This document shows, piece after piece, positions 14,718 to 62,479 of a DNA stretch of 64,000 bases. Location: NCBI GenBank assembly GCA_009746045.1, contig RPFO01000213.1, forward strand, positions 11,197,593 through 11,261,592. Direction: 5' to 3'. Made by a program: the position numbers and the translations under genes. This DNA is from Mesostigma viride (taxonomy: Eukaryota > Streptophyta > Mesostigmatophyceae > Mesostigmatales > Mesostigmataceae). The notes under the pieces are model-generated. The model made no database searches. It was given only the letters and a program-made list of their open reading frames with translations, and was not told where the DNA came from. The stretch's first letter is position 1, and every line of letters starts with the position of its first letter.

Positions 14718-15204
14718 ATGGTAGAGGCCGGGAATATGTCAATTAGAAAGTATTTACCTAGAGATAGCGCGGCCAGGCGACTGTACGTGTTCCACTTCGC
14801 TTCGGCTGCGCTGTCCTTGTTTATCGCGGCGGCCTTCATTGCGCTGATGATGCAAATTGAAAGGTAAATATGGCAGAATCGCCTGCTCGCTGCATTTTCA
14901 CTCACCTCAAGCCGTCCTTCGTTCAAATGATTGGTGGCTCTCTATTCGTGTATGGGATTAAAGGCCTCGTCATGTTGTTTGTCCTGGGCACTTTCATCCG
15001 TTTTGGCTTGGCCGCCTGAACCTCAGGCGTTCCATGAATTTGGTAAATCGCAAGATGGAGGATCTGCTTCTCGGGGGATCCCAGGCGCGGGAAGATGGCC
15101 AGAATCAAACGCTGAAGGGTCTGCAAAAGGATCTCCAGAATCACATGTCCCTTTTGCTCGAAGCGTCCACGAACAGTGCAGAAAAGATGGTCGGATGGGT
15201 TAAG
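14718..15204 (+). CDS. Channel gene exons 1-2: signal anchor and coil
   Basis: Exon 1 (14718-14863) starts at ATG with an in-frame TAA just upstream. It encodes a short basic N-terminus (IRKYLPRDSAARR) and one hydrophobic helix (YVFHFASAALSLFIAAAFIA), read as a signal anchor with the N-terminus in the cytosol. Donor AG|GTAAAT, phase 2. Exon 2 (15027-15204, acceptor CCTCAG, donor AAG|GTAAGT, phase 0) encodes a polar helical stretch (LVNRKMEDLLLGGSQ...) leading into the ectodomain, as is usual before dCACHE domains. Exon 1 is too short to stand out as a long open frame. Confidence 0.75.
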
Positions 15205-18200
15205 GTAAGTCTGCTCTGGCATCTGCCAATTGGAATTTCAAGGTCTGGTCGATGACGTTGAGTTGGGTGCATTAGTTGCATCTGAAGTTGCCGTATGAAT
15301 TGACTTTCGAATTCATAATATGGTCAGGTGTTTTGTTTGGTGATAGTTCGTGCTGCTCTGTAGCATGGCACTGCAATGACACAATGGTACCTCTGCCCCT
15401 GCCATGGTTACCATTGGTAATGCGCATGCAATAACTTTTCTGCCTTATCAAGCGGGGCTTCACGTGGTCGTCCGGATTATTATCGAGCCTGAATCTGGCG
15501 GAGCCTGACATCTTTTAATACTTGGCAACCGTGTAGTCTACTACTTCAGCTGTCGGCAATCTTTAGAGATAAGCCTCACTTTGGAAGCTTTGGTTGTTGT
15601 CTTGCGCAGGCACACGGTCTGTGGGTGCATATCTATCTTTCTGGCCTGCACTGGTCGTCTCTTTGATATCCATGATTCGATGGGCTCCATGGAATCATAG
15701 ATATGTGTTTCCTGCTAGATCTTGGCGCAAAGAAAACTTGCTGGGGCTTTTCAGTGAGAAAGAATTTTTTGTAGGCTCAACAGTCAACGCTCTGCCTATA
15801 CCTCGGCAGGGCCCGCCATCTTCTCGGCTAGGCCCACCACCTTCCCAGCAGGTAACGTGAAGTTTTGAACTGCTTTCTGTTTAATATACCTAGAGTCAAA
15901 ATTACAGACAGATTTGCTAAGCAAACACGGCGCCATGGTCACGTTTACCTATGCCCGACACGGTACTGTGACCATTGGCCTTACTTTGTGGGTTGGTAGG
16001 GACTCGAAAGGGGTATCTTAAGTAAGTAAATAGCTAACGCAACTGGACTACAATCGCGCAGCAGTACCATGTAGCTCCATGCTGCCATGTTTCCCGAGTC
16101 ACAAAAGGGTCAAGCCTACATTGCTGTCTGTGAATTACAATAGCATGGTGTGGCAGGCACGGATTTACAGGCGCCGAGTATCGAGGATTGTCCTTTTTTC
16201 TTCTCGGACATCACGCACGGAGTGGCTGGGAGTAAGGGCTATCGGCGGTGGTGGATGGAAACAATATGCTTTCTAAGTTTGACTTTATCAAGGGTGTCCT
16301 ACGTACAATCCCCCCCAGGGATTGTAAGACGGTGCGAGGTGTTTATGCTCACCTATCGTTTTCGTGTAACACCAGCAAATGAGATAAACTAGGTTAGTAT
16401 TAATAGGTTAATATTGTTACCATTTGAATGCCCGAAGGTTGGCTTGCGTGGATGGGGATGCGTAGCAGTCACTAACTTAAAGTGCCCGCGCTTTCTTGCT
16501 GAACTCACGTGGACCCTGGCAATTTTTAAAAGTTTCAACTCTGGCATTCTTTCAACGGCTGTCCCCCAACCAGGTTGGCTTTGAGCTTGAGGACTTTGGT
16601 GACGGCCGCCAGCTGGACCTGAGCGACCCCTACCACCAGGGCGCGCTGGACGCCTACCTGCACATGCTGCTGACCACGCTGCTGGAGACGATGGATGGGG
16701 GGGGCGGCAGAGACGGGGGCGGGGGGAGTACCCAGGCGAGCCTGAACGGGATCTATATCGGGTCCGTGGACGGGTACTTTCGGGGCATGTTCACCCACCC
16801 CAAGCATCCAAACCGCCTCGTGCGGGAGTACGCAGGCCCTGGTGTCTACAACGGCTGCCTCATGAGGGACTGGATCCCCCTGTCAGGCCCATCGGGATGT
16901 GGCAGCGATGGAGGTAATGATGTGGGTGGGAAGAACGGGTCATCGTCCAATGGCGGTCGTGCGGACAACGTCACATGTGAATTCTCGCTCAAGGACCTGC
17001 GGTGGTTCGCGGACGCGCTCTCTCAGGACGCCAAGGACGCGGCCAGCGACATCTCCAGCAGCTGGGCGGACGGCGTGTGGACGCAGGTGTACAGCGCGCT
17101 TGATGGGCGCGGCCTCGTGATGACGTACGCGGAGGTGATATATGATGCCAACGGCACCGCGGTGGCGGTCGCGGCGGCCGACGTGGCCGTGCCAGCGCTC
17201 AGCATGAGTTTGCAGGACGCGGTGAGCTGGAACTCGTCAGGCAGCAGCACGCTCATGGTGATTTTCGAGGAGGACGGCGACGTGCTGGCGAGCTCCGACC
17301 TGAGCATCGCTGGTAGGTCAGACTCGATTGGCCAGGGGCTGGGAGGCAGCCTTAACGCCAGCATGACCGCGCCATCACAGCGGCTCAACATCCTTGAGCA
17401 CCCGCACGCGTTCGTTGCCACGGTCGTGGGTCTGTATCTGGCATCCGCTCAGTCTTCCCCTGGTCCCAACCCCCAAGGGGCAGGGGCAACCATGCCTTAC
17501 GATGAGCTCCACACATTTGATACCACACTGCCGCCGCCACCGCCGGAATCGGTCGCTGGGGCCCTGGCTTCTCCCGACACGGCTCCTCCCCCCCCTGCAA
17601 ATGGGACTGCCCCGCAGTCGCCGGACGACCCCGCACCCCCACCCGCAGAATTGGAGGGGCCTCCTCCATTTCCTCCGGGTCCTGGCACCCAGGACTATGT
17701 GGTGTTTGAGTACGAGGACCCGCACGTGTTCATGGGCCGGGTGGGCAACGAGGTGTTCTTCTCTATCTCCCGCCATGCCTCGCGCAACCAGAAGTTCCGC
17801 CTGCTGGCCGTGCTGGAGCTGGAGGCGGCGCCTGAGGCGGAGCGCAGGGGTGCGTGGAAAGGGGGGTGAAGAACAGGGGCTTTAAGAAGGGGAAAACCAT
17901 AATAATTATGGCATGTTATTACACATACGGGAGCAGCACGATTTGAATGCGAGGCTTCAAGCACGATTTGGGGGCTATCAGGAGATGCTCTGTTGACATG
18001 GCTGGTATGCTGTGAGATGCACGTTATTCATGAAAAACTCACGCGGATGTGTAGGGAACGATTTTCGATATTTTTTCTGTCAATTCATGATGGTGCAATA
18101 GCTGTTCTGGATATTCTGCTTTTTCTGTATACCCTTCTCCCCTCCCCTTCCCCTAACCCGCCGCCCCCCTAACACCCCCCCACACACACACCACCACCAC

Positions 18201-19040
18201 CACCACCACACACACACACACACACACACCATTGCCTTTCTCCTTCCACCATTATGGAGCCTTTTCTGTATACCCTTCTCCCACACACACTATTGCCTTC
18301 ACCTGCCACCGTCGCCACGTGCCCGTGGCTGCCCATGCTCACATCACACGTGCAGAGCAGCTCTCTATCAAGGCAGTTAACTAAGGCACGTGACTGCTAT
18401 GAGGGCCAATCTAGGAGGTAGAGCCAATGACAGTCCAATCATAGGGTTTACTGACATTTTTTAAACTGCAATCCTGCCTCCATTTTTCGCAAACCCCCCC
18501 CTGGCTGCTGCCGCTCTCCCCTCGAACCCCCCAGGCCACATCGCCACCATTGTCTTCACCGTGATCGCCGTCCTCTGCGTCGCCGCCATCTTCTACCACC
18601 ACTCCTTTGTGGGCGCGGCGCTGTACCGGGCGCGCGCGGCCGCGTTCGACAGCAGCGTGCCTGTGTCCAGGCAAGACAGTGGGCCCGTGGCAGGGTGCTC
18701 TAATAAATCTGGCCCCCGGGACATGAATGGCCAGCATAATGTGCACCATTTGGGCTCGTCTGGTGAGCTATCGGATTCCCCGTTGAAAGGGAGCCAATCA
18801 GCTTGTGTCAAGCCTCCACGGACTCTCTCGGCACCGGCGTATTCCCTCCAGATGGCGTCCCCATCCCCCGGGGGTTTGCAGGGGGAGCCCTTGTCCCCAC
18901 CACCGAGTGCGACTGTGCAGGTCTCCCGTCCGCGGCGCCTTGGCACCTCCCTGCAGGGCTTTGTGAAGTGGCTAGTCACGCCGGTGCTGGTCTTACTGCC
19001 GTTAGTGCCTTGCCCACACGAGTCGCGGGAGCTGCAAGGG

Positions 19041-19087
<47 letters not shown>

Positions 19088-21201
19088 GCTGGTGGCGCTG
19101 CCAGGACAGGTGGCGGGCGTGAAGCGGCTGCCCCACTTTTGGTCGACCATGGCAGTGTTTGGGTTCCTGCTGGCAATCCTGTGTGCATTTGCGCTGGGCC
19201 TCACGTGGCGGCACCAGTCGTACAGCGTGCTGACCGTGGTGCGCGACGTCGTTGTGCGCGGCAAGCTGGCCTACACACAGCACTACATGAACAGCTTCTT
19301 CCTGTGAGTGAGGGGGGGCCTATATGAACAGCTTCTTCCTGTGAGTGAGGGGGGCCCTACACGAACAGCTTCTTCCTGTGAGTGAGGGGGGGCCTACATG
19401 AACAGCTGCTTCCTGTGAGTGAGGGGGGGCCTACCTGCTGTATGCCAAGTCGGGTGCACATGCCGCCTGATATATATACTAGTATTATATATTTAAGAAA
19501 TTAACCAGGTTGGGTTCCATTGGATTTAGGACGGTATTCTGGTCTTTGCATGGTATTCTTCACTGGATGCCGCCGCTAGTATTTTATCTGATGTAGAACA
19601 CCCATGGAGCATCTGGGCCTTCCTTTGCCTGGTAGCATGCCGAGGAAGGGTGGTGATTTAATGCATTACCTGGCATTGTATAAAGGTGCGTTGCCTGGTA
19701 GCACATGGAGGAGGGGGTGTTTAATCATTTTATTGAAGGGGTTAATTAAGGGGTGGTTACCTGTCAAAGTGTGAAGATAGCGATGTTAAATGTATAACAG
19801 AACCATGATTGAGCAGCCAGGGAAATAGCTGTTGAAGCAACTAACTTTGTAAGTTAAATATGGTAGTCATTCCGGATTTTTAGTCCAAACATAGCAGCGT
19901 CTTGTAATTATTGCGGACTTGCTATTTCTGATGCAAAGCCTAAATAATTGTTACTGTGTTAAATGCAGTTTCGACTAACTTGAATGCACCAATTGACGTG
20001 CTCCTGCCAGGATTTGCTGATATAATATTTTCCAACTTCAACTCTCATCAAGCAGCATCTACGCTATCTCTCTTTATTCTTATAGTATAGAGAAAAAGCA
20101 ACACCGGCTATCCGAAAATCATCACTAACCCATTGTATCTTCAAAGAAAATCACTAACCCAAACGCATCTTTTCTGTACCCCTGCTGCCCAACCCCCATG
20201 CCTCGGCTCAAATGCCTCGCCTCTCGCCCTCAGTGACTCGCAAATCGGCCCCACCTTCCTGGCCGCGCGCGCCGCCCTGCGCGGGTCCGCCGCCACCTGG
20301 ATGAACTACGAGCCGCCCTCACCCGTGCTGTGGCGGGGCACCGGGGCAAAGCTGCCATCCTCCGACAACGCCACGGACCTCGTCGACGCCACGCAGGTGA
20401 CGGGGAGGAAGAGCCTGAAGCTGACCAAAGCGCAGGACGAGCTGTACCGCCACTTTGACCGCGCGATCTATGCCGCGCTCTCCGTGCTGGCCGACCGCGG
20501 CGTGGGCTCCCGCTGGGTGATGTCCGGCGGGGCCGGGCTCGCGGTGGACAGCATACACGCGGCGGCGGCGGGCATGCGCGTGAACAACCTCTACTTTGGG
20601 CTGTCTAACGGCGACTTCATCGGCATCTGGTGCCCCTACGTGAGCGTGGGCAGCGACGGCGGCAACGGAACGGACCTCGGCTGCTACTTCTCAATCATCG
20701 AGCAGAAGAGCAACCCGGTGTTCCGGCTCAAGCACCGCCCCGTGTGCGACGTGCTCGAGCGCGGGGGCGGCCAGGTGGTGGACGGCAAATTCGGGCTGAA
20801 TGTGTCAATGGACACAGACGGGCTGGGTGTCCAGGGTCCCGCGCAAGGGCTGTGCGACCCCTCGTCCACCTACCGGCGGGCGACCGCGCCGTACGAGGAC
20901 CAGGGATGCTCATACGACCCGACCGTGCGGCAGTGGTTGGTTTTGGGGCACTTGGTGGTTGTCTCATGGACATGATGGGTCAGGTTGTGATGTCACTTCT
21001 GAACTGCAAGCAGAAACAAGCAGGAAGAAGAAGTGAGAAGCAGTTTGAAGTGTGCTGGACTGTAGAATTGCGTGGACCTTTTTATCGTATTCTTAGAGGC
21101 CGTGGTAGTCCACTTATTGGCACGAATGGCCCCCTGTGTATTTATTTGGTCGCCCCCCATCTTGCTTTGCGCTCCCCCCCCCCCCACAAACACACACACA
21201 C

Positions 21202-21250
<49 letters not shown>

Positions 21251-24200
21251 CAGGTACAAGCGCGCGGCCTTGTATGGCACGCCCATCTGGTCGGACCTGT
21301 ACACGTTCGCCAGCAACACCACCGGGTCCACGCTCGGTCTCACCTACGCGGTGCCCCTGGCCGGCGAGGCAGCCACGGATGAGTCGCCGCCCCCGCCGCC
21401 CCCCCCCAGCGAGACCATAGCTGTGTCCCCACCAGCTAGTGACGACACGGCGGGCGCCCCCCCTGCGTGCGTTGACTTCACCTCTGGGATCCACAACGAC
21501 GGGGATGGCAACGGGACCGCGGAGGGCAAGGAGCTGCTCGGCGTGTGGGCGTCAGACGTGTCCCTGAAACAGATCCAGGATGTGCTGGTGGCGCTGGCCC
21601 AGGGGCTGGGGTCGGCAGGCCAGGGCCGCATCATGGTCGTGGACGACCACAACCTGACGCTCATCTCGTCGTCGCATGCTGAGTCCCTGGGCGACGCGTC
21701 CGGCTCGTCGGCGCCGATCAAGATGTTCGAGTCCAAGGATGCCGAGGTGGCGGAGACGGGCTCGTTCCTGCTGGGTGTGTCGACCGACGGCAACTTGACG
21801 GCGCACTACGGCACGTTCACATGGCTCCTGCGCGACAACGACTCGCCGCTCACGTTCGTGTTCCCGATGACCATCGCCCAGGGCCTGCGCTGGATGGTCG
21901 TCGCGACCACGCCACGCGATGACTTCTTTGCCGACTGGGACGCCGAGTTCATGTGGCTCTTCCTCCTGTCCACCGCGCTCGTGGTCCTCCTCTCCTGGGC
22001 CGCGCAGGTGTTTGTGGGCGTGTTCGCGGCCGCCGTGCTGCAGCGCTCGGCCGGCGGCATCCCCCTGGGCACCCTGGGCGACCCCTGGAAGACGGCGCTC
22101 TTCCGCTCGCGCCCGACCGCCGATTCCAGCTTCGGGCGCACGTCCTCGGGGGGCAGCGCGGGCGACGCCACTCTCCCACGCGCGCGCTCGCTCCCTAGGT
22201 CGGGCTCCGGCTACTCGCTCGACCTCGCGTCCACAGGGACCACCCTCGAGTCTCCCTCGGAGAACGAGCATGACCCGGGCGGGGGGGGCGCGGGGGCTAC
22301 TGTCACGGGCTCCGGCGGCCGGCGGGGGTTGCGGCCCGGCAGCGCGCGTGCGGGACTCCGGCAGCGCGCGGCCACGGTGGGCGCGGTCGCGGCGTCCTCG
22401 GGCGGCCAGATGCAGAGCCTGCACAAGCTGATGGGGCTGTCGTCCACGAGCAAGGAGTCGCTGGAGAGCGTGCTAACAGGGATCATTGGCAACGTGATGA
22501 TGGCCGCGCACGCGAGCTGGAAGCGGCTCCCGCTCGGCACGGGCCGCTCGGACGTGGACCGCGGCCTGCGCGCGCGCATGCTGCACCAGCTCGAGCACGG
22601 TGCGCACTCGGGCCGCGCACTGCTGGGCACCGCCACGCGCAGCTGGCGGGGCAGCTGGCGGGCGCGGGGCGCGCGGCAGGAGCGCTTCTGGCGCACGTCC
22701 GGGCTTGCCCAGCGCGGCAAGGACGAGGGCCACGAGGGCATCTCGCGAGAGGACAGCGAGGCTAACCTGCCGGTCGCGGGGGCGGGGAAGGGGGAAGGCC
22801 CCATGGAGGGGCCGTCCCTCTCTGACGCGAACCATGCGGTGGAGGTGACCCCGGTCGTACGCACGGCCATAGGGGTCCCACTCATGGTGCGGACGCCAGG
22901 GAAAGGCTACCCGTTATCGGCCACGGAGGGCGTCAAGAGCCCGGCAAGGGAAGCCGTGGTGAACGTCAAGGAGAGTCCGACACCTGGCCGCGCCAAGCTG
23001 CAGGGGGTGGGTGGGAAATCATCAGGCGGGGGGGTGGCGGCCACCCCCTGGCACCGTCGGCTGTTCTCGGGGGCGAGCACAGGGACTCCTCCAGAGACGC
23101 CCCTCTCGGGCGACCCGACGTACCACCAGTACAAGACACACCTGCTCAAGCGCGCCGTGCAGCACATCAAGGAGGGTGACGCAGTGAGTGCAACAGGGAT
23201 AAATGCTGCGGGGTTGAGTGGCACGTTTAAGAAAAAAAAAGAAAATTGCAGAGCCACGCCATTCTCATTACTCTGTAATGTTGTGCACCCTTTCCTTGCC
23301 TCCTACGGCTTCGCTAGGCACCCCCTATGACCCTAAAAGGGGTTGGTCTTGCAATAACATTGGCTTGCGATAATTTGTCACTAGACAGCTTCTCGTCACG
23401 CATGTCGTCGTGACTTCATCGTTACACTGAAGCGTTTTGCACCCGTTCCTTGACTCGTGACTCGCTCCGAGTTTACTCGATGTCTGTCCCATCTCTGACG
23501 CTGTTGTATGCTCTTGCCGACTATCTTCATTTCTATTACATCAAACCCACCCTCCACCCCTTAACCCCCACCCCTTCACCCCCCACCCCAGAGCCGCAAC
23601 ATCATCACCCTGTGCGACCTGGACAGCCATGAGTCGCACTGGTATGCGCGCGCCTACGCGCTCGTGACCAGCCCGCACTGGCGCCTCTTCCTCGCAGGGA
23701 CCCTGCTAGTGCACCTGCTCGTCTCCTTCTGGCTCCCTGAGGACAACAAGGCGCTGCGCGACTTCTACCGTCAGCAGCCGGCCTCACGGTTCGATGACGT
23801 GTCCGTCGGGGGGCCAGATGGCGGTAACAACAACGGAAACGATGGGGGCATCCTCTCTTCTGCCCTACTCCGGCTGGGCTCGTCTCTCTCGGTCACGAGC
23901 ACCGCCAAGGCCAGCCTGCTGGTCATCCAGTTCCTAGAGCTGCTGTGCCTGTTCATCGAGAGCGCGAGCGTGTCCACGCTGCTGCTGGCCAAATACTACT
24001 GGGCCAAGCCCAATTTGCTCAACATGGACAACCTGGCCGCGCGCGTGTTCGACACGGCCGCCGTGCTCCTACTCGCGCTGCTCATCACCGACTGGGGGCT
24101 GCGCATGGTGCGTGCGCGGCATGTGCGAGTGTGTGATCCATGTCCCAACCACACGTTAGATGGCCACACGTTAGATGGCCACATGTTAGATGGCCACACG

Positions 24201-24569
24201 TTAGATGGCCACATGTTAGATGGCCACACGTTAGATGGCCACATGTTAGATGGCCACACGTTAGATGGCCACATGTTAGATGGCCACATGTTGGTGGTCT
24301 GCCTTGCACAGCGTTAGCACCGAACCTACTGGTCACCACACTGGTCACTGTAACTGTTGGGTGGTCTGCCTTGAGAAGCCATACGTTGTCCTCCTCACCA
24401 ACATGACCAAGGTCAACAGTATTGGAAACCAACCCCTGTTTTAGTGTACCAACCCCTATTTGGTGCGCATCTTGTCGCTCTTTGTGTTGGTGTTTCCTGT
24501 GCCGTCGGCTGACCTCCTTCCCCTCGCCCCCCCCCCCCCCCCGCACAAACACACACATGCAAACACACA

Positions 24570-24638
<69 letters not shown>

Positions 24639-27600
24639 CTTCCCCCCCATCTCCTCCCTTTCCCCCCCCCCCCCCCCCCCCTTCTCCCTCGCTCTCGGCC
24701 TCCCTCATTACCCATCCCCATCCCCACCACCGTCACGGTCACCAGGGCGCCCACTTCAGCATCGAGTACTACATCCCCCTGCGCGCGTTCCTGGTGATCG
24801 CGCTCAACCGCAACATGCGCGACTCGCTCGCTATGTTCACGCGCTCGCTCGCCGACGCGCGCGACGTGCTGCTGCTTATTGGCCTCATCATCCTGCTCGG
24901 CGGCATATTCGGCTGCATCCTATTCGGCCGCTCGCTCAACGCGGACGCGTTCGAGGACTCGTTCGCCGACATCGGCCGCTCCGCCATCACCATGTTCATC
25001 CTCATATCCACGGGTGCGTGGATGCAGGGGCCCCCTGGACGCCTTAGAAGGGCTTTCACCGTGGCCACATGTCACTTCTAAAGCGTTTGACTATGTAGGA
25101 CCGGCGCGACAGTCCCCCTGTAGGACGTGCATGACCCATAAAAAGGCTGAATTGAGTAATCAATATAATGGCCATGGTACATACTATTCATAAAGTATAA
25201 TATAGTACATAGGTATATTATTTTCTGTGTATGTACTTGCACTCATGCGCAGGGTTATGCAGAAAGAGGTATGCCCCAGAGAACACGTATAGAGAGGGTA
25301 GAGCCGTTGCCCTGTCACCGTGGCGTTGTGGATAGCTTTACTGGAATTACTTGCGCAAAAGTGAAATGTACGTACAAATCTTTGCGAGCAGAATTCTGAC
25401 CCTGTATCTGTCCCCGCTTTCGCCCCCGTTTCCTCCCATGCTCCCCCCCCACACACACACACAGGCGAGAACTATGCGGAGGTGGTGTACCCTGCGTCGC
25501 TAACGTACCCGGGCGCGGTGGCCTTCTTCATCTTCTGGTCTACCATCGGCCTCCTGCTGCTGCTGGCCCTCACCATCGGCACACTGCAGGAGTCGTTCGG
25601 ACACCTGGCGCACGAGAACCGCATCACGCGGCGGTACGTGGGTGAGCGGTGTAGAGCACACCAGGTCACGTGACGCCATATTGGTTTGTCTGGCCGACGC
25701 TACGGGGTGGTTTGTCTGGTCGGGGGTATATCTCGCTAGATTTCTGGCCTGCGTGGGTTGTCTCATTCTGCGTTGATGTCTGGCCTTCATGCCCATGCCC
25801 ATTTCCTTTGCAGGTGGTTTGTGGATGTGTAAGTGCCCATACACATTTTCGCTATGCCCTGATGACATTACTCTATTGGCTCACACTGCGGTACATATGG
25901 GGGTGTGCATGCTAATGGAGGTGGTGGATGTACTTGTAGGTTGCTCATGTAGGTCCTAAGTCTAGGTCCGCATCCACTCTTACTTTTTTCACTGCACCCC
26001 CCCCTATGGCTGCATGCCAACCCCATTCACCCACATCCGCAGGGTCTACTATCGCATGGCGGTCGCGGCGGCGTTTGCGCTCGTGGACGTGGATGGGTCA
26101 GGGTCCCTGGACGAGGACGAGGTGGTCAACTTCATGAGGCTCTACCGCCCGGGCTCCGAGGAGCAGCGGCTGCGCGAGGCGTTTGGGCGCGAGGCGTGGC
26201 GGGAGGCCATCATGCAGCGGCAGGCGGCGCGTGCGGCGGCCGCGCATGGGCACGCCCCCGGCGCCAGCAACTTCAGCAAGGGGGCGCGCTCGCCGCGCGC
26301 ACTCTCTGTCAATGGCGGCGGCAGCCTCCGCGCATGGTCCCTGCAGCCGATCCAGGAGGCCAAGGCCCCGGGCATGGCCATGTCGCCCGTGATGGCGGTT
26401 CCGGATGTCAGTCACAAGCACCCCGGCAGTGGCGGCGACTACAGTAGTAACGGTCACTCGGGCGCATTCATCGGTGTGGCGGGTCAGGCGATGGCGAGGC
26501 CTCTGCAGGGGGGCACAGAGGCCCCCGGCTATGGCGTGCCGAGGGACGTGGTGGTGCTTCATCACAAGGCCGCGGGGGTTGGGGCGCTGGACAAGGGCCC
26601 CTTGAACAGGGTCTCCAAGGAAATGGCGGGCGGGCATGCCAATGGCCACTCCGAGAGCTCCCCCACGGACCCCGGTGCCTGGACGGAGAACAGCGCGGGT
26701 CCCGTGGGCCGGTCCAGTCTCGACGCCGGCAGCGGTGGCGCGGGCCTGGCCATGGCGGACCACGGCCGGCGGGCCAGCTGGGACAATTCTGGCGCACGCA
26801 TTCTAGAACCGGGCAAGGCGACCCCTTATGTTGCCGGGGGTGCGGGCGTATCGACAGCTGGCCACGGGAGCCGTGGCAGCGACCAGCATCTGCACGATCC
26901 ACCCCCCTTGGAGGAGGGCGAGAGCGGCATGCTCAGCGGAGCGCCCTTCATGCGTGAATCCAGTCGGTTTAGCAGCGGTGGCCCCTCCGACGCCACCCCC
27001 GGCAAGGCCACCCCTCAGATGCCATCATCCGGCACCAAGACAAGCCCTGGAAATGCCACGAGGGGCGAACCCGCAGGGGATGTCCATGTGGGCGCTTTTG
27101 TTTCCCCCCCCGCAACCTCCCCCTCCTCGATCTCGCTCGCGCGCGTGGTCCGCCTCGTCCCCGAGGCCATGGGCGCGCTGCTGTCCCCCCGGTACGTTCG
27201 CCAGCAGGAGGAGGAGGCGCGCGTGCCCGTGACCCGATCGCGCTCGGTGCGGCCGCAAGAACTATTCGGGGCGTACGGCAGCTTCCGCCGCTCGCCCTCG
27301 TCTTCATCGGCCGAGGACAGCGAGGCGCTGTTGCGGGCAGAGCCCAGCCCGGGGCTGTTTGGTCCCGGGAGCTCGAACGATGGAAACGGGGAGCCGTTGG
27401 AGGGCAGAGCCATGACGGGCGACGGCAGCGCGCGCGGGATGTTCTCGGCGGGGTCCTCGTTCAGCTACTCTCTGGCCACGCCGGGCAGCGACGGCCGCAC
27501 GAGCATGGATCTGCCCCTCATCGCCCGCGACGCCTCCTTCTCCGACAAGGTGCCCAGGGACGCGTCCAGCAGGGAGGAGGGCGTCCCCACGACCGCGCCG

Positions 27601-28873
27601 GCCAGGGGCGCCCATGCCAAGGACGGCTCGGGCGGCTCGGGTGCCAGCCACGCGACGCGAGCGAGTGGCGACTCGGTCACGTTCTCCACCCACGAGGCGG
27701 CGCTCAGCTTCTCCCACAGAGTGGCCAGGGCGAGCGAGGCGGCGGGGGCACAGTATGCCGCGGGGGTCGCGACGGCCGCGCCGGGTGGGGACCCGCTGCC
27801 CAAGCCATCGACGATCTTACCACTGCTGCTGCCGCCGCCGGATCAAGCCGGCAAGGTGCCGCGCGGGCTGAGGCACGCGGAGCTCCGGGATGGGGGTGAG
27901 GCACCAGAACTAGTCTCGCCTGTCGCCAACGGGCAGCGCCACAACCCCGCCCACCACCACCACCACCACCACCAGTTGAGCCTTGGTAGTGCGCGCTCGA
28001 TCGCCCCCTTGATCCCTGGCAAGATGTCCTCGTCCTCCCTGGGCACAACTGGCACGGCAGGCAGCCTCGACCTGGGCTCGTGTGCGCCTGAGGACGAGGG
28101 CATGATCGAGGACGAGTTCGGGTATAGGTATAGTAACCGCTCGTACAATGACCGGTATCCCAGTAACAACCATGGCATTGACAAGAAGGCGCAGCGGGAC
28201 GACGGCCGCCCGACGGTCTCGATCGCCGGATTCACGCGGCTGCTAGAGGACAACTCGCTCAAGCTGCGGCGCGCGCGGTCGCACATGCACCTGCAGCGGC
28301 TGCTGCAGGGCCTCCTGGGCTCCCGCTCCTTCCGCGTGCTGGAGATGCTTTTCCTCATCGTCCACATCTTTAGCGGTGCCTGCTACGGGATCAACATCGC
28401 CGCGCTCAAGTGGTCGTCCAGCAGCGGCGCGGGCGGCCAGGACGACACGCGCGCGCTCCCGGTCGACGGCATCAACTTCTTTCTGACCATGTTCTTCCTC
28501 GCGCGCGTCGGGCTCACCGTGATCGCCTACGGTGCGTGCTAATGTTAGTGCGGCGGCAAGATTTTAGCACTGCCATATATAATTATATTTTTCGTGAACG
28601 GTATGCCTTTTGGTTTTCGCACTGCTATCGCGGCACTGTGGTACGTTGCGACAACATCCTTTAGTGTATGTCCAGGGTTCGGGGTTTAGGGCTTACGGTT
28701 CAGGGTTTACGGTTTGGGGTTCAGGTTATAGTTTGGGGTTCAGGTTATAGGGCGCAGCGGAGTGTGACCAACTGCTGCTTGTATGACGTGGTAGTCTTTG
28801 ATTAGTTAGAAGCGATTGGCCGGCGAATACGTTCTGACACCCACCCACCGCGGATCATCTTGATTTCATTTAA

Positions 28874-28949
<76 letters not shown>

Positions 28950-30149
28950 CCCCCCCCTGCCCCCAACACTTCTTGCCCCCCCCCCCCCCCTTTTGCCCAG
29001 GCCCCGTCGAGTACTGGTGGTACCACATGTACCGCCGCCGGCTGCACGGCAACAACACGCTGGGGGGCGAGCGCGCGGCGCGGTCGCCTGAGGACACGTT
29101 CCGCCGCCGCGGTCTCGCGCTGCTGGCAGTGGTCACCATCATCCTCCTGGCCACGTCCCTGGGCACGGGCCTGGAGAAGCCCGAGCTGCGCCGCCTGGCG
29201 CTCGTCATCTCCACCCTGCGTGTGTTCCTCCAGGTACCCTCCCTGCGCCACCTCCTGTACACGGTCTACGTCGTGTTCAACGTTCTGCTCGGGCTGCTGC
29301 CCTTTCTGGGCGTCGTCATGTACGTGTACGCGGTGTGGGGGGTCATGCTCTTCCGGGGCGCGGAGCGGCAGGTCGGGCTCAAGGACTCGACCGCGGGGTC
29401 GTTTGAGAACCTCGCCGAGGCGATGCTGCAGCTGTACCAGCTGCTGGTGAGTGGCGCGACCTTGCTTGTAGTCGCGCGATGTGCATACTACTGCTGCAAG
29501 GTTCTGCATGTTGTTGTACCTTACAGCTGAGTGACTGAGGCGCACCCGCGTGCTCCTATTGGCTCAATTTTATACCAGCGGCAGGGAAGTGGCGCGCCTT
29601 TTTTGTTCCCCTTCATTATCAGCTCAACCTTAACGTTGGCCATCTCCGGGTGTTTTTTTTGTGTGTACTTTGGGAAAAAGGGGAGGGGGGGGGGGGCCTT
29701 GCGAAGCCGTGGAGCCGGGGGATCAAGGATTGGCGAGATCATGGCTTGCCTCCAACATCATCGCTACTAACTGAGCCAACCCTCTTTCAGTGGAGCGCCT
29801 TGCGAAGCCGTAGCATTGCTGCACGGGATGGCTTGTCTCTTGCGGCATGAGACGGCTTGTCATGGCAGGCTTCTTGCTGCATGAGACAAGTGGCGGTTGT
29901 GAATGCACTGGTTCGAGTTTGATATAAACTCACTCTTCTGTCAACATCTGATCACACTCACCTCAGGCCTGTGTGCTTTTTCACTTAATGACCTACTGCT
30001 CCCCGCTCCTATTTTTTTGGCACTTTACCGTGCTTGTGCACTTGCCACTTGCCAGTGCTGGTGCATGCCGTGAGCACCTTCATCGTTTCTGTACATGTAC
30101 CTATTTACATGTATGTAATGGACACCTCGTCGACGTCCACACACACACA

Positions 30150-30208
<59 letters not shown>

Positions 30209-30630
30209 TCCATCCCTGCCCCAACACCATGCAACACCATATCTCCGCCACCACCACCACTGCATGCATCACTTACGGACATCACCCCCATGCTCCCCAC
30301 GACCAATACATACCGATCCCTGACCCCCCCACCCCCCACCCCCCCCTTCCACACACACAACAGCTGGGCGAGTCATGGAATGATGTCATGTACGACGCGA
30401 TCAAGAAGACGGACTGGTCCTACTGCGTCTACTTCCTCTCCTACATCATGCTCGTCACGCTCATGCTGGCCAACCTCATCCTGGGCGTCGTGCTCCAGGC
30501 CTTCTCCACGCTGCACAAGCACCGCAACCTCTCGCTCGCGCAGGCCTCACGGCTCGTGCGCGCCGAGGAGGAGTGGTTGCCGGGGGACGAGTCAGTCTCC
30601 CACAGCGTGCGCAGGCCCTCCGCCGGATAA
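14718..30630 (+). CDS. dCACHE-sensor / two-repeat cation channel fusion (TPC-like)
   Basis: Exons: 14718-14863, 15027-15204, probable 15810-15851, 16574-17849, 18535-19303, 20234-20935, 21254-23183, 23592-24107, 24746-25013, 25465-25633, 26043-28531, 29001-29446, 30364-30630 (TAA). Every junction has GT..AG and matching phase, giving 9198 nt, about 3065 residues. Order: TM1 (23-45), dCACHE-like 1 (~125-545), TM2 (549-569), linker with 14 Gln (718-731), TM3 (750-773), dCACHE 2 (~775-1265), TM4 (1271-1300), linker, channel repeat I (S1-S6, 1711-1983), EF-hand (2014-2025), ~740-residue disordered linker, repeat II (2762-3023), short tail. The four outer TMs place both sensor domains outside the cell or in a lumen and the channel termini in the cytosol. 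Inferred role: ligand-gated, voltage- and Ca-modulated cation channel. The exon structure is my own assembly; the domain calls are by eye. Confidence 0.85.
15810..15851 (+). CDS. Probable 42-nt micro-exon of the channel gene
   Basis: CTCGGCAG precedes it and GTAACG follows. It encodes GPPSSRLGPPPSQQ in phase 0 at both sides, so it can be included or skipped without a frame change. The flanking intron is 1.37 kb if it is skipped. Confidence 0.45.
16574..17849 (+). CDS. Channel gene exon 3: first dCACHE-like ectodomain
   Basis: Acceptor AACCAG at 16573, donor G|GTGCGT at 17850. The encoded segment follows the dCACHE plan: an early YIGSVDGYFRGMFTHP strand-turn pattern, then KDLRWFADAL in the position of the usual D-x-R-x-x-W-Y ligand-pocket motif, then WTQVYSALDGRGLVMTYAEV and the G-x-V-A-V-x-x-x-D-V strand pair. 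After a second PAS-like part it carries Pro-rich inserts and ends with FRLLAVLELEAAPEAERR next to TM2. The canonical pocket residues are less well kept than in dCACHE 2, so ligand binding here is less certain. Confidence 0.65.
18163..18236. repeat. C-rich/(CA)n/(CCA)n tract in intron 3
   Basis: CCCCCC with CACACA and CCACCACCA runs, followed by (CA)n, in the intron 17850-18534. Confidence 0.85.
18535..19303 (+). CDS. Channel gene exon 4: TM2, polyQ linker, TM3
   Basis: Acceptor CCCCAG, donor CT|GTGAGT (phase 2). It starts with a membrane helix (HIATIVFTVIAVLCVAAIFY), then about 180 polar residues with 14 consecutive CAG codons (19044-19085). It ends with a second helix (TMAVFGFLLAILCAFALGL) and the start of the next ectodomain. 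The pure CAG run is likely to vary in length. Confidence 0.75.
19267..19434 (+). repeat. 37-bp tandem repeat duplicating a 5' splice site, 4 copies
   Basis: The end of exon 4 plus its donor (GAACAGCTTCTTCCTGTGAG) is repeated with donors at 19304, 19341, 19378 and 19415, exactly 37 bp apart. Only the first keeps frame with exon 5; using another adds 37, 74 or 111 nt, and the frame next open to the known acceptor phase is +111, if no stop intervenes. The first added codon after CTG is TGA, so all downstream donors would truncate. Confidence 0.9.
19435..20233. other. Intron 4, AT-rich, nothing else seen
   Basis: The intron from 19304 to 20233 after the duplicated donors. AT-rich, no ORF of note, ends at acceptor CCCTCAG. 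Confidence 0.5.
20234..22050 (+). CDS. Channel gene exons 5-6: second dCACHE and TM4
   Basis: Exon 5 (20234-20935) and the first part of exon 6 (from 21254) join through donor TG|GTTGGT and acceptor ATGCAG. The join creates DPTVRQWYKRA, the dCACHE signature D-x-x-x-R-x-W-Y, which carries amino-acid- or amine-binding residues in bacterial and animal homologues. Before it are NNLYFGLSNGDFIGIW and a Cys-containing loop. After it come WSDLYTF, LGLTYAVPLAG and a GVWASDVSLKQIQDVL block, then the membrane-proximal fold and TM4 (WLFLLSTALVVLLSWAAQVF). This is a full-length double-CACHE domain of the kind found in chemoreceptors and in the alpha2delta subunits of Cav channels. Confidence 0.8.
21177..21248. 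repeat. (C)n-(CA)n tract at a 3' splice site
   Basis: It lies directly before acceptor ATGCAG (21253) of exon 6. The long Thr-His frames through it are artefacts. Confidence 0.95.
22051..23183 (+). CDS. Channel gene exon 6, cytosolic linker
   Basis: About 380 residues between TM4 and S1 of repeat I. Rich in Ser, Gly, Arg and Pro (RRGLRPGSARAGLRQRAATV), with no recognised fold. It ends with a helical YHQYKTHLLKRAVQHIKEGD at donor GCA|GTGAGT, phase 0. Probably a regulatory or phosphorylated spacer. Confidence 0.7.
23592..25633 (+). CDS. Channel gene exons 7-9: channel repeat I (S1-S6)
   Basis: Exon 7 (23592-24107) encodes S1 (WRLFLAGTLLVHLLVSFWL), S2 and S3. Exon 8 (24746-25013) encodes S4/S4-S5 (IPLRAFLVIALNRNMRDSLA), the same spacing as repeat I of plant TPC1, then S5 and the pore helix. 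The pore is split by an intron inside the Gly codon of the filter. Exon 9 (25465-25633, donor GTACGT) gives TGENYAEVVYPASLTYPG and S6. The PA after the filter is a TPC-type feature. The filter Glu replaces the Asn usual in TPCs. S4 has few arginines, so voltage sensing by this repeat may be weak. Confidence 0.8.
24149..24297. repeat. 15-bp minisatellite in intron 7, ~10 copies
   Basis: The unit ACGTTAGATGGCCAC alternates with ATGTTAGATGGCCAC, so higher-order 30-bp units are visible. It starts about 40 nt after the donor of exon 7. Confidence 0.95.
24531..24680. repeat. (C)n-(CA)n-(C)n tract in intron 7
   Basis: Poly-C, about 90 bp of CA, then another poly-C, 65 bp upstream of acceptor CACCAG (24745). 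Confidence 0.95.
25014..25464. other. Intron 8, ending in (CA)n next to the acceptor
   Basis: The intron interrupts the filter Gly codon of repeat I. CCCCCCCCACACACACACAG runs straight into exon 9. It contains GTCCCCCTGTAGGACGTG, which is also found at about 6042-6059. Confidence 0.7.
26043..28531 (+). CDS. Channel gene exon 10: EF-hand, long linker, S1-S2 of repeat II
   Basis: The first 27 residues include a canonical EF-hand loop, DVDGSGSLDEDE, with calcium ligands at positions 1, 3, 5, 7, 9 and 12. Plant TPC1 carries EF-hands at this same inter-repeat site, but two of them; I see only one here. The next ~740 residues are disordered: Ser/Gly/Pro-rich, with many SP/TP and RS sites and an octa-His run near 27952. 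Then an amphipathic segment (LKLRRARSHMHLQRLLQGLL) leads into S1 and S2. Donor G|GTGCGT, phase 1. The linker is far longer than in known TPCs. Confidence 0.8.
28671..28755. repeat. Degenerate TTTAGGG-like repeats in intron 10
   Basis: Successive variants of GGGTTTAGGG, GGGTTTACGG and GGGGTTCAGG in the intron between exons 10 and 11. They look like decayed interstitial telomere-type repeats. Confidence 0.55.
28875..28949. repeat. (CA)n tract before exon 11
   Basis: About 36 CA units followed by poly-C and the acceptor TTTTGCCCAG at 29000. Confidence 0.95.
29001..30630 (+). CDS. Channel gene exons 11-12: channel repeat II S3-S6 and tail
   Basis: Exon 11 (29001-29446) encodes S3, S4 (ELRRLALVISTLRVFLQVP then SLRHLL, with five Arg), S5 and the pore helix FENLAEAMLQLYQLL. 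The intron sits just before the filter. Exon 12 (30364-30630) gives LGESWNDVMYDAI, very close to the Cav-type E-x-W filter context, then S6 (VYFLSYIMLVTLMLANLIL) and a short cytosolic tail ending RRPSAG, stop at 30628. This S4 is richer in arginine than that of repeat I, as in plant TPC1, where repeat II carries the working voltage sensor. Confidence 0.8.
30137..30208. repeat. (CA)n tract in intron 11
   Basis: About 35 CA units, 150 bp upstream of acceptor CACAACAG at 30363. It is followed by C-rich sequence that serves as the pyrimidine tract. Confidence 0.95.
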
Positions 30631-47853: not shown

Positions 47854-48042
47854 AGCTCCACCCCATGTCAGGCCTCTAGTATAGGTGCCAGTTAACTAAA
47901 CCCATGCACGTGCAGGTTGTAGCTCAGAATGTATTTAAAATCATATGCCCCTTTTCAGGTATATGTGTAACAGTGACTCCCAACGGATATATGTTCCTAA
48001 TTTATTAAATTCTTACTGAATAATTGTTGTCTTTATGAACCC

Positions 48043-48383
48043 ATGAAGAGCAAAGCCCGGTGGGGAGTACATGTAACGCATTACCACGAGAAGGGGTCCC
48101 CACACCGCATTTCTTCGCTCTCTGTTCCTATGCAGAACAAGAAGAGGTGGAAGACCAATGTCCCGGCTCACACGCCAGCCCATGTGGGTAAGCCCCCTCC
48201 CCCAAAGCGGAAGGGGCGCTTTGGGGAGAAGTGTAGTGAGGATTTTGTAGACTAGATAGCTTAGAGTTAGCTTATTTCGATGTCGCGGCTTGACCCACCT
48301 CTACCCATTCAGCAAGGAATATGCATGTGCTGCATGATCTCCCAACGGAGGCATGTTATAATTTTATTTGATTCTTTAATGTA
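48043..48383 (+). pseudogene. LINE 3'-end fragment
   Basis: PMQNKKRWKTNVPAHTPAHV and GKPPPPKRKGRF match the C-terminus of the intact ORF2 at 57411. The following UTR keeps the hairpin region (CTCCCAACGGAGGCATGTTA) also present, inverted, at about 57305-57335. A 5'-truncated insertion in plus orientation. Confidence 0.75.
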
Positions 48384-48384
48384 G

Positions 48385-48505
48385 TGTCTTGGGGCATGAT
48401 GCAGATGAGATTTGTAACTTCCGTGTAATTATGTTTCTAAAGAGATTAGCATAGTACTCTAAACATGCCCATGCGCATGACACGCAAGTACTAACTTACT
48501 TACAC
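48385..48505 (+). repeat. Dispersed repeat, copy 2
   Basis: Same blocks as 33706-33836. Confidence 0.65.
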
Positions 48506-48719
48506 CAGACCTGGCAATAAACAAGCATTGATGGGATGGACCCAGCGATACATAATGGGCGTGCATGCGTAAAAAATATACACTATGCATGGCCCAATGG
48601 GCATGCATTCAAATAATTACAAATGAAGGCCGCCATGAGAGCACTGAAGCTAAACCAGACCGGGCCACAATTAACCCTCCAGCACCAAAGTTCCACTGCA
48701 TCATGTAAGACAAGCCTGA

Positions 48720-49843
48720 CATCCATCCATCCATCCATCCATCCATCCATCCATCCATCCATCCATCCATCCATCCATCCATCCATCCATCCATCCATCC
48801 ATCCATCCATCCATCCATCCATCCATCCATCCATCCATCCATCCATCCATCCATCCATCCATCCATCCATCCATCCATCCATCCATCCATCCATCCATCC
48901 ATCCATCCATCCATCCATCCATCCATCCATCCATCCATCCATCCATCCATCCATCCATCCATCCATCCATCCATCCATCCATCCATCCATCCATCCATCC
49001 ATCCATCCATCCATCCATCCATCCATCCATCCATCCATCCATCCATCCATCCATCCATCCATCCATCCATCCATCCATCCATCCATCCATCCATCCATCC
49101 ATCCATCCATCCATCCATCCATCCATCCATCCATCCATCCATCCATCCATCCATCCATCCATCCATCCATCCATCCATCCATCCATCCATCCATCCATCC
49201 ATCCATCCATCCATCCATCCATCCATCCATCCATCCATCCATCCATCCATCCATCCATCCATCCATCCATCCATCCATCCATCCATCCATCCATCCATCC
49301 ATCCATCCATCCATCCATCCATCCATCCATCCATCCATCCATCCATCCATCCATCCATCCATCCATCCATCCATCCATCCATCCATCCATCCATCCATCC
49401 ATCCATCCATCCATCCATCCATCCATCCATCCATCCATCCATCCATCCATCCATCCATCCATCCATCCATCCATCCATCCATCCATCCATCCATCCATCC
49501 ATCCATCCATCCATCCATCCATCCATCCATCCATCCATCCATCCATCCATCCATCCATCCATCCATCCATCCATCCATCCATCCATCCATCCATCCATCC
49601 ATCCATCCATCCATCCATCCATCCATCCATCCATCCATCCATCCATCCATCCATCCATCCATCCATCCATCCATCCATCCATCCATCCATCCATCCATCC
49701 ATCCATCCATCCATCCATCCATCCATCCATCCATCCATCCATCCATCCATCCATCCATCCATCCATCCATCCATCCATCCATCCATCCATCCATCCATCC
49801 ATCCATCCATCCATCCATCCATCCATCCATCCATCCATCCATT
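48720..49843 (+). repeat. (CATC)n array, ~1.12 kb, uninterrupted
   Basis: About 280 tandem CATC units with no visible variant, ending ATTGATCGGGGTATAG. The long IHPS and MDGW frames are artefacts. Perfect purity over 1.1 kb points to very recent expansion. Confidence 0.98.
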
Positions 49844-49857
49844 GATCGGGGTATAGT

Positions 49858-50125
49858 CCTAGTACAGCCATGCTACGTCCTGGCTATGATGAGATTACTT
49901 GCCCACGCTCCTAGTGTTATGCCATGCTCACATGGGTCTTATTGCACCCACAGATTGCCGGATCGTTAGCGTGTCCGTTTAGCTAGCGTCCCCGAATGCA
50001 GCTGTGGCATGCCTTAGGCATGAAGAAGACTGGGGGTCTCTGCCCTTTCTCCTGTTGTGCACTTCGGTGCTCCGTGACTCCCCAACGGGAGCACGTGTTT
50101 AAATAATTAATTAATGAATGAATCG
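49858..50125 (+). repeat. ~270-bp dispersed repeat, copy 3
   Basis: Abuts the (CATC)n array. Same blocks as at 39440 and 40178. Hairpin at 50067-50094, tail with TTAATTAATG. It is followed by a second ATCGGGGTTAA and a decayed hairpin at about 50135-50166. Confidence 0.65.
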
Positions 50126-57410: not shown

Positions 57411-59108
57411 CTACTCATCAAAACGCCTCCTCCGCTTGGGGGGAGGTGGCTTGCCCACAGGGTCGGGCGTGTGTGCCTTGACAATCTTCTTCCACCGCTC
57501 CTTGTCCTGCATGGCAGTCCAAAGACGGGAGAGAGAGTGGATGCGGTACTCAAACTGGGCTGGGACCACTAGGTCGTCCAGCAACATCTGGGTATAGGTC
57601 ATGGCATGTTTCCCTACCTTTTTAGGAATGTTCTTGGGGCCAGGCCAGGTCAAAATGTGCCGCCCCGGTTGGCCGAGCCGCTGGGGACCGGCCAGACCAA
57701 GGGCGGTGTCGACCTGGCTGGTGCGAGCAAGATGTCCTACAAATGCTATCCTACGCTGTCTAATCTCGTCCGAAATACGCGGCATACCGTGATACAAAGA
57801 CTCTAAGGACCTACGCTGAGAAAACCCGACATTCAGGACCTGTCGGAGCATCCGGGTTACCGTGCCGTCTAGCTTGGCTGCCAGTGTTGCCGTGAGTGTC
57901 CATGCCTCGGCGCCATACGTGAGCACCGTGAGGACGAGGACCTTGAAGAGCATGCGCTTGCGGTGCTCGTCCAGGCCCTTGGAGCGCCAGTAGGTGTTGA
58001 GCGAACGGAGCTTGGCCCAGGAAAGGCCGATGCGGGTGTCCACATCGTCGGCAGTGTCCGGAAGCCAACTCCCCAACAGCTTGAAGCGGTCGCGGAGTGG
58101 GACCTCCGTCCCGTCTAGCAGGCGCGGCAGCGGTGGGCGACTGGAGGCCCCAATCACCATCGCCTCAGTTTTGACACTAATCTCCAACCCCACCGCCCTC
58201 GCCTCCAGGCCCAGACAGTCCAGCCAGGTCTGAATGTGCTCGGGGCGCGCGATGAGGGTGGTGTCGTCCGCGTAAATCAGGTCAGCCAGGCGGTAACCCG
58301 TGCTAACCCCGCCGTGCCCACGCTCGTTAAGGATGTCCAAGCCTGGCTCGAACCCCTTAAGAGCAGTAAAGCGCGCACGTGCCTGGCGCATGACGTGGTC
58401 CACGACAATAATGAACAGGTATGGAGACAGGACACAACCTTGCCACACCCCGTGGTGAAGGGGGAATGGTGGGGTGGTGCCTTCCGCAGTCCGCACTACT
58501 GCCTGTGAGCCCTCATACAGTCGGCGAATGGCAGCAATAAACGCTGGTGGCACGCGGTCCAGAGCTAGGATGGCCCAAAGAGCCTCCCAGAGGACCGTGT
58601 CAAAGGCCTTGATATAGTCAACAAAAATGAGGACCAGCGGCAAACTGTCAGGGGGAAGGCGACGCACCTCCTCCATCAACCGGCGCGCGACAAACACAGC
58701 CATGACAGTGTTACGACCACTACGGAAACCCATCTGAGACTCACCCAGGTGTGGGTCCAGCGCGGCGCGGAGCCTGTGCAGCATCATGCGCATGAAGACC
58801 TTCAGCGCGGCGCTCTGGAGGCAGACACCCCGGTAGTTACCGGGGTCAGCAGCAGAGCCCTTCTTGTACAGCATGACGCGGATGGCCGTCTGCCACTCAG
58901 CAGGCGGAGGCTCGTCAGAGAGCAGGACACGGTTGCAGAACGCCAGCAGAAGATCCCTAACCGCCAGATCAGGGGTCTTCAGCAGCTCAGCAGAAAGGTG
59001 GTCGGCCCCGACCGCCGCATCGTACCGCAGGCGAGCAAGGGCGCCGTCCAATTCCTCCAAAGTGAAGGGGTGGACGACGTCGTTGGTGGCAAGGCAGCCC
59101 TCCTTCAA
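57411..59108 (-). CDS. LINE ORF2, reverse-transcriptase half
   Basis: The reading frame is open from about 59200 to the stop at 57411. It encodes the RT fingers-palm: NYRGVCLQSAALKVF, motif A FVDYIKAFD, motif B HGVWQGCVLSPYLF and catalytic motif C YADDT. The thumb follows with FKLLGSWL and a LTYGAEAWTLT ... RIAFVGHLAR block common in LINE proteins. The C-terminus is basic and Pro-rich (GKPPPPKRRRRFDE), perhaps for RNA binding. It copies the element RNA at a nicked target (target-primed reverse transcription). The TTG that opens the frame is not the start; this is the second half of one ORF2 with 59105-60880. Confidence 0.92.
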   Translation of the reverse strand: MKEGCLATNDVVHPFTLEELDGALARLRYDAAVGADHLSAELLKTPDLAVRDLLLAFCNRVLLSDEPPPAEWQTAIRVMLYKKGSAADPGNYRGVCLQSAALKVFMRMMLHRLRAALDPHLGESQMGFRSGRNTVMAVFVARRLMEEVRRLPPDSLPLVLIFVDYIKAFDTVLWEALWAILALDRVPPAFIAAIRRLYEGSQAVVRTAEGTTPPFPLHHGVWQGCVLSPYLFIIVVDHVMRQARARFTALKGFEPGLDILNERGHGGVSTGYRLADLIYADDTTLIARPEHIQTWLDCLGLEARAVGLEISVKTEAMVIGASSRPPLPRLLDGTEVPLRDRFKLLGSWLPDTADDVDTRIGLSWAKLRSLNTYWRSKGLDEHRKRMLFKVLVLTVLTYGAEAWTLTATLAAKLDGTVTRMLRQVLNVGFSQRRSLESLYHGMPRISDEIRQRRIAFVGHLARTSQVDTALGLAGPQRLGQPGRHILTWPGPKNIPKKVGKHAMTYTQMLLDDLVVPAQFEYRIHSLSRLWTAMQDKERWKKIVKAHTPDPVGKPPPPKRRRRFDE

Positions 59109-60880: not shown

Positions 60881-60954
60881 GGTAGTGGAACGGGACTATT
60901 TAGAGGCTGTCCCCGAAGCCTGTTAGCCGCGAGCCGACGAGGAAGGTTGTCTAC

Positions 60955-62148: not shown

Positions 62149-62479
62149 CTAGACGATGGCAGGGGGCGCAGGCGCACGGCTCACGTGCGTGGTGCCGCCA
62201 TAACGTGCAGAAAAATAGCGATATCTGCTGGGCAGGCCGCCGGCGATAACTTTCGAAATCCTGGGCGATGGCTGCCAAAAATTAGATCAGCGTGTTCGTC
62301 ATCAAAAAGCGAGTCTGTAGCAATTTACCCGACCAAATTTCATGCCCGGAATCAAAAGTTATGAGCATTCTCGGCATCCATAGCTCGGCGCACCGTAAAC
62401 CGTCACGACGGTAAATTACCACCTCGTAATTTACGCCTCGGATGCTTTTTACCACCCTCGGACGAAAAGTATAGTGATG

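Follow-up and report, generated by a model that had tools for sequence, protein, structure and literature searches.

Alpha2delta, the target of gabapentin, and the two-pore channels (TPCs), whose pore is formed by a dimer, are among the described systems closest to the gene examined here. According to the available part of the 2016 Cache survey (PMC4822843), Cache domains belong mostly to alpha2delta in Metazoa and to histidine kinases in plants and fungi, and ion channels appear among Cache outputs only through alpha2delta-type domains. In the accessible text of PMC9901441, the function of leucine binding by alpha2delta is stated as not known. Here we describe a gene on the plus strand of a 64,000-nucleotide stretch of genomic DNA, hereafter the window, which is predicted to encode in one chain two ectodomains, each held between transmembrane segments (TMs), and a member of the voltage-gated channel superfamily with two repeats and an EF-hand, an arrangement that recurs in a diverged paralogue of the same assembly. 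The modules are familiar ones; their covalent combination, which both copies preserve, is one for which we found no description. We lean towards reading the product as a cation channel gated by Cache domains within one polypeptide, with an alpha2delta-like sensor fused to a Cav/TPC-like pore.

The hand-built gene model contains 12 exons and 11 introns, opens with an ATG at 14718, ends with a stop codon at 30628–30630 and encodes 3051 residues without an internal stop. These limits agree exactly with those of a preliminary description of the locus, which had counted thirteen junctions and about 3065 residues where we find 11 and 3051; its agreement in phase at the junctions holds, all 11 introns being GT-AG with consistent phases. 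Splice sites were picked by hand and, at the end of exon 9, where several donors are possible, the frame-keeping one was taken. The G+C content at third codon positions ranges from 0.63 to 0.95 among the exons. The predicted protein runs in the order TM, ectodomain 1, TM, linker, TM, ectodomain 2, TM, linker, six TMs, EF-hand and six TMs. With TMs placed by hydropathy, exon 1 (14718–14863) carries the ATG, the N-terminus and TM1 (residues 27–45), and ectodomain 1 (46–533) starts in exon 2 (15027–15204) and continues in exon 3 (16574–17849), which holds a weak Pfam dCache_1 match at residues 259–362 and then a Pro-rich loop. Exon 4 (18535–19303) encodes without interruption TM2 (536–554), a poly-Q linker, TM3 (738–756) and the start of ectodomain 2 (about 760–1255), whose first part, up to SYDPTVRQW, lies in exon 5 (20234–20935). 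Exon 6 (21254–23183) adds the remainder of this ectodomain, TM4 (about residues 1256–1290; 21948–22052), which by hydropathy encloses ectodomain 2 together with TM3, and a long linker with a stretch that segment alignment finds conserved in the paralogue. About four tandem repeats of period 37 at 19283–19434 cover the end of exon 4 and its splice donor, placing similar donors in a row, and (CA)n runs lie on the coding strand in five of the 11 introns (18181–18229, 21185–21248, 24544–24636, 28875–28948 and 30138–30207).

The main independent support for this architecture is the recurrence of the part order in the paralogue, which lies on contig C1613 of the 440-Mb assembly and, in a hand-made model, has nine exons and 2296 residues. 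In global alignments of hand-cut segments, the window protein and the paralogue share 110 of 343 aligned residues in ectodomain 1 (32%), 98 of 380 in ectodomain 2 (26%; 50 of 142, or 35%, in its membrane-proximal part), 104 of 247 in repeat I (42%), 27 of 60 in the EF region (45%) and 126 of 281 in the repeat II region (45%), including 40 of 71 (56%) across its pore and S6. The first TM (6/29 identical, z 2.0) and the first linker (52/167, z 2.1) showed no clear likeness between the copies. As we read the two models, introns 3 and 4 of the window gene recur at corresponding places and in the same phase in the paralogue, and the other nine of the 11 do not recur.

The proposal of a single polypeptide is supported at the junction of exons 6 and 7 (residues 1667/1668), which the preliminary description had named as the place to test for two separate genes. 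This junction lies inside one paralogue exon that encodes linker, pre-S1 and S1, and a search of the 17-kb paralogue locus matched residues 1649–1716 across it (37% identity, E 7e-11), on which ground we reject a two-gene model divided there. Several further parts are likewise joined within single exons: TM2, linker, TM3 and the start of ectodomain 2 in both genes; the second part of ectodomain 2, TM4 and linker in the window gene; and most of S4 to S6, the EF-hand and repeat II in the paralogue. That two or more neighbouring genes were wrongly joined could be argued from a structure predicted from genomic sequence alone, with introns of up to 1369 bases; besides the read-through in the paralogue, the critical intron 6 measures just 408 bases, the third shortest of the 11, and the open stretch holding exon 7 has its first Met no earlier than the end of S2, so that a separate start for the channel part is not evident. 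We therefore regard a wrong join as having next to no probability.

For the ectodomains, the best Pfam match was in both cases a Cache model. As encoded, ectodomain 2 matches MCP-like_PDC_1 (E 2.9e-4) and dCache_1 (E 0.015) collinearly, both below their cut-offs. A Pro-rich loop of 56 residues (1060–1115) splits this domain, and after trimming to residues 760–1254 and removal of the loop, MCP-like_PDC_1 reached 2.2e-6 and 28.5 bits (cut-off 27) and dCache_1 reached 3.7e-5 and 23.8 bits (cut-off 45), the dCache_1 match spanning the join. Ectodomain 1 as encoded found dCache_1 as its sole Pfam family (E 0.0064, below cut-off), and trimming to residues 109–402 with residues 213–237 removed brought this to E 0.0018, still below cut-off. 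None of four shuffled controls, two per ectodomain, matched any Pfam family, and no VWA family was among the Pfam matches of the window ectodomains at E 10. Against solved structures, ectodomain 2 found methyl-accepting chemotaxis proteins best (E 0.22 and 0.24, not significant) and ectodomain 1 nothing useful. In NCBIfam, the single model matched by ectodomain 2 (E 0.0026) stayed well short of its cut-off, and a piece of ectodomain 1 had no match. Judged from these profiles, ectodomain 2 is a dCache-type match and ectodomain 1 is probably dCache as well; where the preliminary description had named two dCACHE ectodomains and suggested profile searches for the fold, the second is thus supported, by Cache models of which one passes its cut-off in loop-free form, and the first is found weakly, at sub-threshold scores.

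The ectodomains might instead belong to some other extracellular fold, not related to Cache, in which the motif arose by chance. Such a reading could draw on the sub-threshold scores as encoded, on the empty NCBIfam result for ectodomain 1 and on the paralogue, whose ectodomain 1 matches dCache_1 at only E 0.15 and whose ectodomain 2 matches no Cache model in Pfam; it must then set aside two collinear Cache models on ectodomain 2, one of them above cut-off once the loop is removed, clean shuffles, and Cache models at the top of the Pfam matches of both window ectodomains. We hold it to be very improbable.

A second line of evidence for ectodomain 2 comes from the amino-acid pocket of the bacterial receptor PctA, formed by Y121, R126, W128, Y129 and Y144 in the available part of PMC10104139; Asp 173, printed there as a residue of PctD, is taken here as belonging to PctA. 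By residue count, Y1017, R1022, W1024, Y1025 and Y1040 of ectodomain 2 stand at the exact spacing of these five PctA residues, as far as they can be read from that source, and D1125 in VWASDVS is taken as the equivalent of D173 by place rather than by spacing, which makes the Y-R-W-Y-Y-D set complete. On the DNA, Y1017 to Q1023 occupy 20913–20933, Y1025 to Y1040 occupy 21255–21302 and D1125 occupies 21555–21557, with the codon of W1024 split by intron 5; the string DPTVRQWYKRA, which had been pointed out earlier in the second ectodomain, is present and interrupted by the same intron. The motif failed in ectodomain 1, which has LRWF instead of RxWY, and the Arg position two before the Trp is Leu in ectodomain 1 of both genes. 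In paralogue ectodomain 2, YDPVTSCFF stands opposite the motif in one alignment and a gap in the other, so that no motif is claimed there; only the pocket Asp (VWATDV) is aligned in both. As the motif is not shown for the paralogue or for ectodomain 1 of either gene, an amino-acid ligand is predicted for the window protein and not for the family. For alpha2delta-1, the accessible text of PMC9901441 places the motif, written YxxxRxWY and Y...D, in the first dCache domain and describes Arg and Asp as important for gabapentin; its first spacing, in that printed form, is shorter by one residue than in PctA and ectodomain 2.

In the channel part, both repeats match Pfam Ion_trans above cut-off (E 3.1e-12 for repeat I and 2.4e-28 for repeat II), in agreement with the two-repeat channel already proposed. 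Repeat I begins in exon 7 (23592–24107) with pre-S1 and S1–S3, placed by hydropathy and the paralogue match, and continues with S4, S5 and the pore helix in exon 8 (24746–25013; Pfam) and with filter I (TGENY, E1930 at 25467–25469) and S6 in exon 9 (25465–25633; structure-sequence alignment). Exon 10 (26043–28531), assigned by Pfam and hydropathy, contains the EF-hand, a low-complexity linker of about 700 residues and S1–S2 of repeat II. The EF-hand loop DVDGSGSLDEDE (residues 2000–2011; 26086–26121), which we take to carry the usual ligand positions, scores E 5.7e-5 with EF-hand_1; this one EF-hand between the repeats falls below the Pfam cut-off, and its sequence aligns with that of the AtTPC1 EF-hand region. 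Repeat II is completed, by Cav1.2 alignment with hydropathy in the former case, by exon 11 (29001–29446), with S3–S5, of which S4 is charge-poor, and pore helix, and exon 12 (30364–30630), with filter II (LGESW, E2966 at 30370–30372), S6, the C-terminus and the stop.

Among solved structures, TPC1 comes closest to repeat I plus EF-hand (E 8e-8; AtTPC1 6e-7, with an alignment reaching the EF-hand region) and Cav1.2 to repeat II (E 5.5e-25), for which none of the 42 Protein Data Bank sequences with E of 1e-8 or less is a TPC. In the window gene and the paralogue alike, a Glu occupies the high-field site of each filter, the paralogue filters being SGENY and GEDW, whereas the aligned TPCs have TTAN/TTSNN in place of TGENY. 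The label 'TPC-like' given previously is apt for repeat I together with the EF-hand, but repeat II, like the two filters, is of Cav type; filter I and the second repeat lead us to reject membership of the TPC family. Of the six basic positions in the aligned Cav1.2 stretch, S4 of repeat II retains three, the same three in the paralogue, which lowers the case for voltage gating. In the available part of PMC10120453, a beacon rule made for one- and four-repeat channels links a neutral non-Gly residue above the high-field site to Na+ permeability and Asp to Ca2+ selectivity. The residues just above the Glu are Asn and Ser in the window filters and Asn and Asp in those of the paralogue, so that this rule, as far as that source gives it and applied here to a two-repeat channel, would make the window channel permeable to Na+ and the paralogue more selective for Ca2+.

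The nearness of repeat I and the EF-hand to TPC1 also bears on the membrane in which the protein works, given that TPCs are often organellar in the accessible text of PMC11085791. An intracellular TPC-type channel of a vacuole or acidic store, with lumenal Cache domains reading a stored metabolite, would fit these points, and the Glu in both filters, unlike the filter I sequences of the aligned TPCs, speaks against it; we think it improbable. The window protein has 15 glycosylation sequons in 984 ectodomain residues against six in 1402 residues (p 0.0065), and this density, together with hydropathy, favours a topology in which its ectodomains would lie outside.

By analogy with TPCs, two polypeptides would pair to build a four-repeat pore with a ring of Glu and four sensors outside. 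In ectodomain 2, an amino-acid-like ligand would occupy the Y-R-W-Y-Y-D pocket; the resulting movement would reach the S1–S6 bundle by way of TM3/TM4 and conserved stretches of the linkers and open the pore, and Ca2+ at the EF-hand would tune the channel. A candidate coupling element is the linker stretch STSKESLES...HASWKR (residues 1421–1448; 22443–22526), found by paralogue segment alignment; the conserved stretches share 15 of 30 residues between window protein and paralogue here and 12 of 45 before S1. Beyond the gene structure we infer each of these steps, whether of ligand, gating or membrane. Direct ligand gating is plausible, and the idea is sharpened by the complete amino-acid motif in ectodomain 2. 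The more specific proposal, an amino-acid-gated two-repeat cation channel with a covalent alpha2delta-like dCache pair that would be the founding member of a ligand-gated class, is put forward tentatively, as somewhat less probable than Cache gating in general.

Several observations weigh against Cache gating. Besides the Cache scores, which as encoded all fall below curated cut-offs, the weak or missing Cache matches of the paralogue, the motif being shown for just one of four ectodomains and the purely genomic basis of the gene model, the 400-residue linker between TM4 and S1 means that coupling would not be rigid, and an extra hydrophobic segment at residues 675–693, to which the paralogue linker has no counterpart at the same threshold, could alter the topology. 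The sequon excess in the paralogue ectodomains is not significant (nine in 816 residues against five in 910, p 0.28). AlphaFold runs on single-exon pieces without an alignment gave a pLDDT (predicted local distance difference test score) of 36.3 for residues 109–533 of ectodomain 1 and 42.8 for residues 1025–1291 of ectodomain 2, and neither model was used as support; Foldseek with the 1025–1291 model gave no match with E of 0.001 or less, and the 50 matches listed included no Cache domain.

Some of these points would suit ectodomains that act as alpha2delta does, aiding folding, trafficking, anchoring or clustering and merely modulating a pore opened by Ca2+ at the EF-hand, by lipids or by voltage. 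In the part of PMC9901441 available, alpha2delta has two dCache_1 domains, and Cache and VWA matter for trafficking and current enhancement. The failure of the motif to be kept by the paralogue and by both first ectodomains, and the lower identity between the copies in the ectodomains (26–32%) than in the channel (42–45%), would be in keeping with such a role, to which the complete motif in window ectodomain 2, the missing VWA family and the charge-poor repeat II S4 of both copies are opposed. Pure modulation is in our judgement unlikely, while deserving more weight than an intracellular store channel, and a Cache-gated channel remains the reading that we prefer.

Within the genome, all six matches to a repeat I query at E 0.001 belonged to the window gene or to its paralogue; beyond its own exons, ectodomain 2 found only the paralogue (E 1.3e-6) and ectodomain 1 only three weak matches with in-frame stops (E 0.05–0.1), and for paralogue ectodomain 2 the sole match beyond its own sequence was to the window gene (E 0.0018). 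Genome scans with dCache_1 gave a single match, below cut-off, on a bacterial contig, and those with PF22673 gave none; both missed the window gene itself and are thus uninformative about other Cache genes. The genome has at least 153 Ion_trans matches, with further stretches on contigs C2088, C777, C1106, C1690, C887 and C335, some of them in rows that may be four-repeat channels. Outside the genome, searches covered viral, prokaryotic and plasmid collections: no relative was confirmed in the viral and prokaryotic contigs, and one of 72,556 plasmid records matched over 49 residues of an annotated adenylate/guanylate cyclase (E 0.6).

RuBisCO small subunit sequences occur on two contigs of the assembly and, rbcS being nuclear in green-plastid lineages, suggest an organism of such a lineage. 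TPCs are absent from prasinophytes and chlorophytes according to the available text of PMC11085791, so that even a pore of the window type would be unexpected there. Among the papers listed by literature searches, none was recognised as a description of a Cache-channel fusion, and database entries with this architecture may exist. The architecture had been called unfamiliar before; the duplication of dCache is not, since alpha2delta has two in the accessible text of PMC9901441, and the covalent link to the pore is indeed unusual.

If the proposed function is true, the protein would be a Rosetta-stone fusion, in which Cache control of such a pore is either an old gating mode, later split into alpha2delta and Cav, or a parallel one. 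Why alpha2delta has an amino-acid pocket is not settled, and with pocket and pore in one chain, the question whether a Cache ligand gates a pore of Cav type becomes directly testable. The protein would also be a new receptor type for the sensing of dissolved amino acids by microscopic eukaryotes.

Elsewhere in the window, a LINE-like (long interspersed nuclear element-like) element on the minus strand (57414–62148) contains RVT_1 (1.9e-23) and an Exo_endo_phos endonuclease (7.7e-6); another open frame, which matches no family, lies upstream of the reverse transcriptase/endonuclease. GC skew is strong at 48001–50000 (−0.58) and 62001–64000 (−0.64), perhaps from long one-strand simple repeats, and no tRNA or Rfam match was found in the window. 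The 1.49-Mb contig C2011 has bacterial-looking long open frames, including a histidine kinase with a weak dCache match and others that, from their sequence, we take to be RodA-, PBP2-, MnmG- and CysS-like; it looks like an associated bacterium, an endosymbiont or a contaminant in the assembly.

Compared with described systems, the window protein resembles alpha2delta or CACHD1 with Cav in having a cation pore accompanied by two dCache-type domains (four Cache), as given in the available part of PMC9901441, which locates the amino-acid motif of alpha2delta-1 in the first dCache domain and not, as here, in the second. Alpha2delta is a separate, glycosylphosphatidylinositol-anchored subunit with a VWA domain inserted in its first dCache, and Cachd1 is transmembrane, whereas the window protein is covalently joined to its pore, has four TMs in its sensor part and lacks a VWA match in its ectodomains at E 10; its pore is two-repeat, unlike the Cav partner of alpha2delta. 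With TPC1 and TPC2 it shares two 6TM repeats with an EF-hand between them, and it departs from TPCs in the Glu of both filters, in a repeat II nearest to Cav and in its giant N-terminal sensor part; plant TPC1 has two EF-hands and the window protein one, below the Pfam cut-off and aligned with the AtTPC1 region. The Glu high-field site is shared with Cav and bacterial Nav, filter II reading LGESWNDVMYDAI against TGEDWNSVMYDGI in Cav1.2, but there are two repeats rather than four or one, S4 of repeat II is charge-poor, and the window copy lacks the beacon Asp of the Cav rule as given in the accessible part of PMC10120453. PctA and its dCache_1AA relatives have, in the available descriptions, the motif residues and spacing of ectodomain 2 and act through a chemoreceptor, kinase or cyclase output, and mGlyR and GPR179 are seven-helix receptors; in the window protein, by contrast, the predicted output is an ion channel.

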